Source of the DNA: Bacteroidales bacterium
GTDB taxonomy: Bacteria > Bacteroidota > Bacteroidia > Bacteroidales > Muribaculaceae
Direction: 5' to 3'
Length of the DNA stretch: 64,000 bases
NCBI GenBank assembly: GCA_015061005.1
Contig: SUXJ01000013.1
Location: 1-64,000 of the forward strand
Shown one piece after another: positions 18,446 to 21,624 of this stretch (its first letter is position 1; each line of letters opens with the position of its first letter). A program made the translations under genes and the position numbers. Under the pieces are notes generated by a model that saw only the letters and a list, made by a program, of their open reading frames with translations, made no database searches and was not told the DNA's origin.

Positions 18446-19003
18446 TTAGGGTAACAAATGGCTTACCAATATTTTTGCTCCGATAAATATCAAAGTCAAG
18501 CCGCCCGTAAACTCTGCCGCTGATTTGAAACGGTTACCGAAAAGACTGCCAATCTTCATCCCGATTACAGATACTATCAGCGTAATCACTCCGATTATCA
18601 AAGCCGCAACCCACACGTTAACGTCGCTAAACCCTAACGATACACCCACCGCCAAGGCATCAATGCTTGTTGCCACGGCAAGAAACAACATTGTCTTTGC
18701 CGAATAACTCGTATCAACGTGTTCGCTGTCTTTACCAATGGATTCTTTTATCATATTGAGACCAATTGCCGTGAGTAGGATAAACGAAATCCAATGATCA
18801 AAACTCTCAACGTAACTGATAAATCTTGCTCCAAAATAGTACCCGACCAGCGTCATCACGGCTTGAAAGCCCCCAAACCAAAGTCCAACACTTGCGTAAT
18901 GGCGAATGCAGGGCTTGCGCGTTGCTGCTCCTTTCACCATCGACACTGCGCCGGCATCCATTGCCTCGCCGAATCCCAATAAGATCAGATCAAAAATACC
19001 CAT
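18446..19003 (-). CDS. mntP: putative manganese efflux pump MntP
   Basis: The 185-aa inner-membrane protein of the MntP (DUF204) family has six hydrophobic helices in two three-helix repeats. It carries the paired acidic motifs EAMDAGAVSM (first repeat) and ATSIDALAVGVSLGF (second repeat), which are thought to bind Mn2+. The track starts at a TTG (19045), but that codon lies just upstream of the promoter element at 19033-19040, so the first ATG at 19003 is the better start and fits the family N-terminus. I saw no clear yybP-ykoY manganese riboswitch in the short leader. Confidence 0.88.
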   Translation of the reverse strand: MGIFDLILLGFGEAMDAGAVSMVKGAATRKPCIRHYASVGLWFGGFQAVMTLVGYYFGARFISYVESFDHWISFILLTAIGLNMIKESIGKDSEHVDTSYSAKTMLFLAVATSIDALAVGVSLGFSDVNVWVAALIIGVITLIVSVIGMKIGSLFGNRFKSAAEFTGGLTLIFIGAKILVSHLLP

Positions 19004-19032
19004 TCGGAATACGTATGCTAAAAATTCACTCA

Positions 19033-19040
19033 CAAAGATA
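19033..19040 (-). promoter_or_regulatory. -7 promoter element of mntP
   Basis: Minus strand TATCTTTG, a perfect TAnnTTTG match, about 29 bases before the ATG at 19003. It also decides the start codon, because the longer ORF would begin upstream of transcription. Confidence 0.6.
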
Positions 19041-19211
19041 AGCAAAATTTTCGGCTTATCCTTACCCGACCTTCCTCATAACTCCCATAAATCGAGATAC
19101 TCACGCACTTCCGCAAATGAGCATACGCCAAAATCCACGGTTATAACTCTAATCCGTGGCCCATGTCAAAATAAATTACCGTTGCATCGGTTATTATTGC
19201 TATTTTTTTCA

Positions 19212-19219
19212 TAATTTTG
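19212..19219 (+). promoter_or_regulatory. -7 promoter element of the structured leader
   Basis: TAATTTTG matches TAnnTTTG. Transcription would start near 19226 or slightly earlier, close to the first hairpin of the leader. Confidence 0.5.
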
Positions 19220-19221
19220 CA

Positions 19222-19488
19222 CTTGGATAGAGCCAACTCTATTCAAGACATTTGAGAAAAAACGAGGCGTTATGTCTTCTTCTTGTATGTGAAAAGCGTA
19301 GGGAACTTAATCACTGTGTGCAAGAAATGATATAACGGTCTCCATGCATATAGCGTGGGGCTGTTATAACCACATCTGTACACAAAGGTTCTCCTACCAC
19401 CTTCACATAAAGACGTGGCATACGGTTCCACGCTTCTATGTTAATCAAAAATACTCTGTAGGAATCGTAGGGTTGGAGATTATTTAAA
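19222..19488 (+). ncRNA. structured leader RNA upstream of the small repeat protein
   Basis: This 267-nt gene-free stretch holds three strong hairpins. (1) 19222-19247: an 11-bp stem with one G-U pair closing a CCAA tetraloop. (2) 19331-19368: about 16 bp with several G-U pairs, one bulged C and an ATATA loop. (3) 19410-19435: 8 bp with one bulged A. TTCTCCTACC at 19389-19398 can also pair with GGTTGGAGA at 19471-19479, which carries the GGAG just before the ATG at 19489, so it could hide the ribosome site. This is pattern reading, not a folding calculation. It may be a cis-regulatory leader or a processed RNA. Confidence 0.55.
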
Positions 19489-19794
19489 ATGGCAATTTCA
19501 AGGATTGAACGTCATGGTAGTTGGTACTATATCTATGACGAAAGAGGGAAGAAACAGAAAACATTTCCTGACCATATTGGAATGGTACTTGGGTGGGGAA
19601 CTCGTTTTTTTATCGTTCATAAAGGCTCGTGGTACGAATTGTATGATGAAACCGGCAAGAAATACAAAACACTTCCGGACTATATAGGAACCTTTGTCAG
19701 CATTTCCGGCGAAGTTTTCATCCTGAGAAAGGGCTCATGGTTAGAAACCTACGACATGTTTGGAAAAAAGATAAATACACGCCCGGCTCGTTAA
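19489..19794 (+). CDS. small three-repeat protein (GSWYxxYDxxGKK repeats)
   Basis: The 101-aa protein is made of three copies of a roughly 36-residue unit beginning GSWYYIYDERGKK, GSWYELYDETGKK and GSWLETYDMFGKK, the last one cut short. The first two units also share KT(F/L)PDxIG. The pattern suggests short beta-strand repeats, somewhat like WG repeats. I remember similar small proteins in Bacteroides genomes, but no function. It has no signal peptide and no membrane segment. It follows the structured leader and precedes the DUF262 gene by 32 bases, so the two are probably one transcript. Confidence 0.7.
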   Translation: MAISRIERHGSWYYIYDERGKKQKTFPDHIGMVLGWGTRFFIVHKGSWYELYDETGKKYKTLPDYIGTFVSISGEVFILRKGSWLETYDMFGKKINTRPAR

Positions 19795-19826
19795 TTTAGA
19801 AATTCACACTACTTTCTAAAAATTTT

Positions 19827-21575
19827 ATGGAAGCAACGACAATTAAGGCACTGTTTGGAAGACGCAATATTCGCTTTGTTATTCCGGCATATCAGAGAGC
19901 ATATACTTGGGAGAAAAAACAGTTCTCTCAATTTAGGGAAGACCTTCAAGATTGTGCCGGCAGTGATTATTATTTAGGCCACTTTTTGTTTGAGCAAGAA
20001 GGTGAAACCTTTTATGTCATAGACGGACAACAACGACTGACGACCGTCATTATCTTTTTTCGTGCGTTTATAAATGTTATAAATAGCAGAAAAACTGAAT
20101 GGTTAAAAACCGATAAGGCGGAATTAATTCAAGACTTGCTTTTAGATGTTTCGGACTATTATCTGAAAGACATCAGGCATAACCGACAAAAATTCGCCAC
20201 AGTTGAATACGACAATAACTTCTTTATTGATCACATCATTGAGAATCAAAATAATGTGTCAGACGATGATTTGACCTCCAAATCAAAGGCTGCAATCCAT
20301 CGGGCTTTATGCTTTTTTGAAGAGTGGCTGCAAGAATCTACGATAGATGAGATACTATCGTATGTTTCATCTTTGGAGAATGCTTCGATAACTACTTTTG
20401 TCGTGAAAGACAAATTACAGGCCTGTCAGATTTTTGCTTATCAAAACGATAGAGGCAAAAGGCTCTCTAATCTTGAAATTCTTAAAGCCTATTTCATGCT
20501 GCAGATTTACCGAACTCCATTTGACGCGCTTGAACATAAAAGCGGCATTGCTTATATAGAGCGAGCATTTGAGGAAATTTATCGCTACATTGTTTTGGTG
20601 TCTGTTGACGAAGATAGTGTTCTTGGTTATTATTGGAGAGCAATTGGTCCTAAGGGTTATTATAGTGAAAATGTTGTGCATGAGATTAAAGCATGGATTA
20701 ATGCTTGTCCCAAAGAGGAGCAATTTGAAAGGATTAAACATTTTGTCAGCGGATTATCAAAATCTTTCAAAATTGTCAATCAGATAGAGCAAGACAATAG
20801 TTTCTATACCGCCAATTTGAAAAATCTTAAGAATATGGCGATGTCATACCCCATATTGATTAAGGCAAAACTATCGAATGTGACTAAGGAAGTGTTCGAT
20901 AGAATCATTAAACTGATGGAAAACATAACTTTCCGTTCGCTGATAAGAGGAGGCAGAGCAGATATTATAAGTCGCCTCCAGCAAGTCATTCCAAAGACAA
21001 CGTCCCCCGAGGATTTTAGCCAAATGATAGATGCCGCAATTTGGAAACTAAACAACGATTGGTGGTGGGGATATTGGAGCGACAAGCAAATGCTCGAACA
21101 CCTAAAGAGCGGTTGGTTCTATGGTAATAGAGTTGATAATTATCTTTTGTGGAGATATGAACAGCACCTGTGTTCTAAAAACTATCCTAACCCCAAAATT
21201 TGCTTCTCTGACGTAATATCGAATGAAAGTATTGAGCATATTGCCCCTCAAACCCAATTTTCTCCATTAGAAAACGGCTATGGCATCTATGAAGATAAAG
21301 ACAATCCTCAGCAAGGAATAGTTTCCGGAGAATACATGAACAGTGTTGGCAATCTGATGTTAATGGCGGGAAGTCAAAACAGTTCTCTCGGCAATAAACC
21401 ATTCGCGCAGAAATTAAAGGTTTATGGCAGTGATAATTTATTGTACCAGCAAAAAGAGATTATTGATTTTATTGAAGACAAGGATAATCCGATATGGGAT
21501 AAAGATTGTATAAAAAGGCGACGTGATAAAATCATTCAAGCAGCAAAAGAAATCTGGAGTTTAGATAACATATAA
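19827..21575 (+). CDS. DUF262/DUF1524 GmrSD-like nuclease
   Basis: The 582-aa protein has an N-terminal DUF262 (ParB-like NTPase) domain with IPAYQRAYTWEKKQ and the hallmark DGQQRLTT near residue 68. It has a helical middle and a C-terminal DUF1524 HNH-type domain with SIEHIAPQ near residue 470 and the downstream GNLMLM...NSSLGNKPF region. The GmrSD type IV restriction enzymes, which cut modified phage DNA, have this layout, so a defence role is likely. Both active regions look intact. Codon use is more AT-rich than in the neighbouring housekeeping genes, in line with transfer. It ends at a bidirectional terminator. Confidence 0.85.
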   Translation: MEATTIKALFGRRNIRFVIPAYQRAYTWEKKQFSQFREDLQDCAGSDYYLGHFLFEQEGETFYVIDGQQRLTTVIIFFRAFINVINSRKTEWLKTDKAELIQDLLLDVSDYYLKDIRHNRQKFATVEYDNNFFIDHIIENQNNVSDDDLTSKSKAAIHRALCFFEEWLQESTIDEILSYVSSLENASITTFVVKDKLQACQIFAYQNDRGKRLSNLEILKAYFMLQIYRTPFDALEHKSGIAYIERAFEEIYRYIVLVSVDEDSVLGYYWRAIGPKGYYSENVVHEIKAWINACPKEEQFERIKHFVSGLSKSFKIVNQIEQDNSFYTANLKNLKNMAMSYPILIKAKLSNVTKEVFDRIIKLMENITFRSLIRGGRADIISRLQQVIPKTTSPEDFSQMIDAAIWKLNNDWWWGYWSDKQMLEHLKSGWFYGNRVDNYLLWRYEQHLCSKNYPNPKICFSDVISNESIEHIAPQTQFSPLENGYGIYEDKDNPQQGIVSGEYMNSVGNLMLMAGSQNSSLGNKPFAQKLKVYGSDNLLYQQKEIIDFIEDKDNPIWDKDCIKRRRDKIIQAAKEIWSLDNI

Positions 21576-21624
21576 ATCCATACCATACAGGCGAAACCTT
21601 GTATCGACCTTAGTCATCTGAACG

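Follow-up and report, generated by a model that had tools for sequence, protein, structure and literature searches.

The window, a stretch of 64,000 nucleotides from a contig of a Bacteroidales bacterium of the Muribaculaceae (SUXJ01000013.1), contains at 19222-19488 a gene-free interval of 267 bases, with mntP (18446-19045, minus strand) on one side and a two-gene cassette on the other (Table 1). The first cassette gene, at 19489-19794, encodes a protein of 101 amino acids with no match in Pfam, PADLOC or NCBIfam, and the second, at 19827-21575, carries both the GmrSD_N and the GmrSD_C domain (PF03235, PF07510); the small repeat protein is possibly a partner of the GmrSD nuclease.

The interval is a promoter-driven structured leader. 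The original prediction, which had described it as gene-free and far more structured than ordinary leaders, is borne out by folding of the plus strand, whose minimum free energy is -89 kcal/mol against -58.1 +/- 4.4 for shuffled sequences (z -7.05), none of 200 shuffles being as stable; folding of the minus strand is far weaker (z -2.76). The promoter-like sequence expected ahead of it is likewise present, as TAATTTTG at 19212-19219, and the corresponding TAnnTTTG stands just 5' of 183 of the 198 copies of the leader checked, mostly 33-38 nt before the RNA core. Comparison with congeners gave no clean empty site, because mntP is absent there.

Table 1. Features of the leader, its cassette and its predicted RNA structure in the window
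Feature	Positions	Strand	Support
Portable cassette: promoter, leader RNA, 101-aa gene, GmrSD gene	19191..21596	+	84-86% identical stretch at two unrelated loci
Bacteroidota-type -7 promoter element TAATTTTG	19212..19219	+	TAnnTTTG just 5' of 183/198 copies
5' hairpin P0 (19222-19232/19237-19247)	19222..19247	+	co-varies; 279 double-change cells vs <=131 in slid registers
RNA core covered by covariance model R1	19247..19440	+	173.3 bits in own genome; best homologues 190 bits
Helix A, closing stem (19264-19270/19430-19436)	19264..19436	+	98% canonical, about 191 copies; 0/200 permutations
Helix B, pseudoknot (19270-19286/19320-19335)	19270..19335	+	outer part 96%, inner part 85% canonical; co-varies
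Possible upstream ORF, ATG TCT TCT TCT TGT ATG TGA (MSSSCM)	19272..19292	+	start codon in 187/192 copies, early stop in most
Helix E (19287-19294/19402-19409)	19287..19409	+	MI z up to 23.9; 298 double-change cells
Helix C (19298-19303/19392-19397)	19298..19397	+	MI z 24-26; 99% canonical; 153 double-change cells vs <=14 in slid registers
Helix F (19316-19321/19378-19383)	19316..19383	+	MI z up to 18.4; 279 double-change cells; 0/200 permutations
Hairpin D, bulged long stem	19333..19366	+	99% canonical once the tried register was slid by 2 columns
Hairpin G, loop CGGTTCC (19423-19429) as kissing partner	19414..19432	+	stem pairs 82-97% canonical
Hairpin H before the start codon, loop GGAATCG (19461-19467) kissing hairpin G	19453..19473	+	own pairing beats swapped partners
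101-aa WG-type repeat protein, cassette gene 1	19489..19794	+	homologues with the same leader at L259, L260
GmrSD-type (DUF262 + HNH) protein	19827..21575	+	PF03235 6.9e-34, PF07510 6e-15; PADLOC HEC-06 4.2e-44

Fold and co-variation of the leader RNA

Mutual information (MI), calculated for all column pairs in an alignment of 192 copies without assuming any structure, is highest for pairs of helix C (19298-19301/19394-19397), helix E (19287-19293/19403-19409), helix F (19317-19320/19379-19382), the 5' hairpin and the pair 19426/19461, the latter being a contact between the loops of hairpin G and of hairpin H, which precedes the ATG. Compensatory changes are abundant, and pair counting in about 191 copies places C, E, F and P0 well above slid registers. 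When the duplex energy of each strand with its own partner is compared with that obtained with partners from other copies, A, B, C, E, F and the kiss each surpass all 200 permutations, whereas two control strand combinations give no significant signal; a separate permutation test of the G-H kiss gives 0 of 5000, and a set of 20 divergent relatives also shows co-variation for the kiss and for helix B (0 of 2000 each), permutation results which kinship among the copies, only partly removed, may inflate. In the fixed-column alignment the kiss is 41% canonical, which is low because the position of hairpin H varies by a few bases, and the contact was judged by the alignment-free duplex tests instead. 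G-U pairs outnumber A-C mismatches by 688 to 196; therefore, it is the sense-strand, transcribed RNA that is under selection, and this bias, together with the weaker fold of the minus strand, rules out an antisense or minus-strand element such as an mntP leader.

Co-variation shows a predicted fold in which the nested helices A, E, C and F and hairpin D form a closed core, with a pseudoknot, B, and the G-H kiss. The three hairpins previously noted in the interval are real, namely the 11-bp stem with a CCAA loop (19222-19247), which co-varies, the bulged stem of about 16 bp (about 19333-19366), for which alignment folding of the model alignment A1 pairs columns 103-117/123-135, and the bulged 8-bp stem (19414-19432); they are not, as had been supposed, separate, but are joined in one fold by the long-range helices, the pseudoknot and the kissing pairing. 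Two exclusive conformations, B against E/C/F, were considered; helix B crosses E/C/F topologically and overlaps F and D only at the edges (about 19320-19321 and 19333-19335), so that a single pseudoknotted fold suffices. The pairing of TTCTCCTACC with GGTTGGAGA suggested by the original prediction did not hold, since TTCTCCTACC is the 3' strand of the conserved and co-varying helix C, where it pairs with GTAGGGAAC; masking of the ribosome site by TTCTCCTACC/GGTTGGAGA is rejected accordingly, the conserved contact near the ATG being the kissing loop.

An open reading frame follows the RNA directly in 190 of 202 non-redundant copies, with a median of 47 nt separating the core and the ATG (quartiles 43-52; 190 copies) and the kissing partner beginning a median of 18 nt after the core (15-22 nt for the 10-90% range); the median 5' UTR of B. 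thetaiotaomicron is 32 nt (PMC7366714). The start site has no Shine-Dalgarno sequence, and the predicted secondary-structure accessibility round the main ATG has a mean of 0.51; the start codon was not found to be masked in any simple way. Between the two roles first proposed, a regulator of the cassette or a functional non-coding RNA, homology, co-variation and the fixed ATG spacing favour a cis-regulatory leader, while a free non-coding RNA is unlikely because the spacing to the ATG is constant.

Distribution, cargo and mobility

A plain DNA search of 61 relatives was positive in 19, with as many as four homologues in one genome. With a covariance model (R1) built from the 28 copies of alignment A1, the RNA is detected in 239 of the 297 host-family genomes, representing 28 of 30 genera, and in 110 of 393 genomes from the order, representing 66 of 207 genera; the genome studied here has at least four strong copies and multiple copies are frequent elsewhere, all per-genome numbers being lower bounds. 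In a phylum-wide sample, 9 of 396 genomes pass an E-value of 1e-6, seven of which come from other orders of the class and match weakly. Among named genomes, a pattern scan places the RNA in Bacteroides, Phocaeicola, Parabacteroides, Alistipes, Prevotella, Barnesiella, Muribaculaceae and others, and it also occurs on viral contigs, on plasmids and in one phage record. The sample of copies leans to the main clade, because it consists of the best model matches plus those of one exact pattern. No Rfam family, the cobalamin model included, reaches its gathering score in the window or an E-value of up to 5 in 19000-19900, nor do 20 other copies match any up to an E-value of 0.5, scans that rule out a known Rfam family; no description of the leader RNA was found in the searched text of open papers. 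Judged from sequence comparison, it is a widespread cis-acting leader RNA family of Bacteroidales, which is absent from Rfam and has weaker relatives elsewhere in the class. Two further matches in the genome studied here, at G000:C18:150738-150963 and G000:C8:74302-74528 (L085 and L087), score 25 bits, a value that antisense self-matches also reach, and may represent divergent copies or ones that have decayed.

Clustering of the first genes behind 190 copies gives 94 groups without detectable mutual similarity, which rejects a leader specific to the small gene and the nuclease and leaves the tie to a nuclease cassette or to defence, as originally envisaged, unsupported. On the B. uniformis plasmid pBUN1 the first gene behind the leader is the extended-spectrum beta-lactamase blaMUN-1, whose ATG lies about 47 nt past the core; the leader there (L248, NZ_AP019725.1, 6033-6215) has a MobV relaxase gene on one side and blaMUN-1 on the other. 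The cargo also includes a relative of lincosamide nucleotidyltransferases, below curated cut-offs, a DarT-like toxin (PF14487, 4.5e-30, below the NCBIfam cut-off), HxsD of His-Xaa-Ser systems, and RecD-like and other defence-like proteins. In a crude N-terminal test, run without a control set, 136 of 190 first genes appear signal- or lipobox-like. The commonest gene behind the leader, in 25 of 190 copies, belongs to a recurrent family of exported proteins (DVTKFLGIPVDGSKSEMIQKLKAKGF...), which is the first ORF at L021, L046, L051, L055, L096 and other loci.

A MobV relaxase gene lies 5' of 41 of 191 copies, on the same strand in all 41, and in 37 of these it is located 73-120 nt before the core. 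The block from 19191 to about 21596 recurs with 86% identity in another genome (G074, locus L259), directly after a MobV gene, and the block from 19205 recurs with 84% identity in a third (G666, locus L260), beside other genes; the right edge is visible only at L259, as the L260 copy ends at the contig end. The flanks of the three blocks are unrelated and, therefore, the promoter, the RNA and the genes move together, with the left edge at the promoter. The other copies of the small gene are thus preceded by homologous leaders, and the compensatory changes are plentiful, in agreement with what the original prediction had looked for. At L259, as in the window, the WG-type gene precedes the GmrSD gene. 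Because the leader stands before dozens of unrelated accessory genes in gut Bacteroidales, and often first after the transfer gene of a mobile element, it looks like a portable control switch for mobile cargo.

Candidate mechanism and alternative readings

The reading that we favour, with a probability of roughly 55%, is that of a new cis-regulatory RNA family with a G-H gate resembling that of cobalamin riboswitches, serving as the portable leader of mobile cargo. The core would sense something, be it a small molecule, a protein or the state of the ribosome, and would thereby control the docking of hairpin G with hairpin H. Docking would place a rigid element ahead of the ATG, at a distance of roughly 15-35 nt, and, because of that position, could gate the access of the 30S subunit to a start site devoid of a Shine-Dalgarno sequence, in the way that L5-L13 docking sequesters the ribosome binding site in translational cobalamin riboswitches (PMC8123684); the docked state may be the OFF state, which is a guess. 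We infer that such a gate would rest on the kissing contact and not on masking of the start codon. The module would travel with accessory genes and place any cargo under the same control. A more tentative version, to which we give somewhat less than even odds, sees a mobile, cargo-independent module of promoter and pseudoknotted RNA through which all cargo, from the beta-lactamase, the DarT-like toxin and the lincosamide transferase relative to GmrSD and lipoproteins, would answer one shared signal. If this is true, one RNA class absent from Rfam would control many horizontally moved accessory genes of dominant gut bacteria, those for resistance and defence included; the signal would tell when the cargo switches on, and the module would offer a ready-made expression switch for gut Bacteroidales. 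A general question also becomes testable, namely whether post-transcriptional regulation of arbitrary cargo is something that mobile elements carry with them.

Cobalamin riboswitches occur in many copies per genome in Bacteroidota. The leader RNA resembles them (RF00174 and relatives) in being a leader of about 200 nt with a complex core, and in having a core hairpin that kisses a hairpin beside the start site, a contact supported here by the own-versus-swapped tests; a kissing loop and a B12 box are features shared by cobalamin riboswitches (PMC12713380). It differs from them in its helix order, with pseudoknot B, and in its cargo, which as a class does not consist of B12 or TonB genes. The B12-box core word GCCACTG, a single word and hence a weak test beside the covariance-model scans, is absent from 19222-19488, and the leader RNA does not belong to the cobalamin riboswitch family. 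The diversity of the genes downstream is unusual for a metabolite riboswitch, and speaks against the favoured reading. Among the candidates of large RNA screens, as far as their published motif descriptions go (PMC8040213), some Bacteroidetes RNAs lie near phage integrases or radical SAM genes; the Bacteroidetes examples named there differ in being 80-132 nt long and, compared by text description only, could be fragments of the leader RNA.

A passive expression module, in which the 5' hairpin and a compact fold stabilise the mRNA and insulate its translation in any host without sensing, would suit the hairpin at the very 5' end, the cargo-independent use and the travel between species; it is nevertheless doubtful, as unpaired and pseudoknotted parts are strongly conserved over about 190 nt, beyond what a stabiliser needs, and the kiss near the ATG coevolves, in divergent relatives as well. 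That the interval is a structured DNA site of a mobile element heading the cargo, such as a single-strand origin or a site of recombination or cassette attachment, would agree with the adjoining MobV genes and with the left edge of the moved block, but it is very improbable given that 150 of 191 copies have no MobV gene in the upstream stretch examined (up to 3 kb), and given the fixed ATG distance, the sense-strand G-U bias and the conserved promoter.

The remaining alternative, which we consider unlikely, is an attenuator that senses ribosomes through an upstream ORF of 4-9 codons (MLIL*, MSSSCM*) on the 5' strand of helix B, where a ribosome stalled by an antibiotic or by stress would alter the fold and release the cargo gene, as for tetQ or ermC; refolding of the leader could control translation here, as in the leader-peptide attenuators of tetQ and toiL (PMC5418344, PMC12121999). 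As in the CTnDOT tetQ, ermC and toiL leaders, a long leader with a possible short ORF precedes the cargo of a mobile element, part of which here is antibiotic resistance. A conserved GCGUUAUG opens the short ORF in the main clade, with ATG, GTG or TTG at its start in 187 of 192 copies; among those with ATG (n=175), a stop is reached within 8 codons in 94%, compared with 65% and 39% when the other frames are read, and every in-frame copy is closed at or before helix C, where all copies except 6 have TAG or TGA as the triplet. This frame pattern, however, could come from a few indels together with pairing constraints, and in at least 9 of 20 divergent relatives, which retain both the RNA and an ORF behind it, the place of the ATG is taken by GCGTTTAGC, GCGTTAGC or similar. 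Moreover, covering the upstream ORF leaves the predicted accessibility of the main ATG unchanged (0.51 both ways), and one leader serves many unrelated genes, unlike those of tetQ, ermC and toiL; homology to the tetQ leader is rejected, the four tetQ loci searched with R1 (L294-L297) yielding 5.4 bits at best.

The peptide that the possible upstream ORF would encode varies, being MSSSCM in the window and MLIL in many other copies, and its stop is often a UAG or UGA within helix C.
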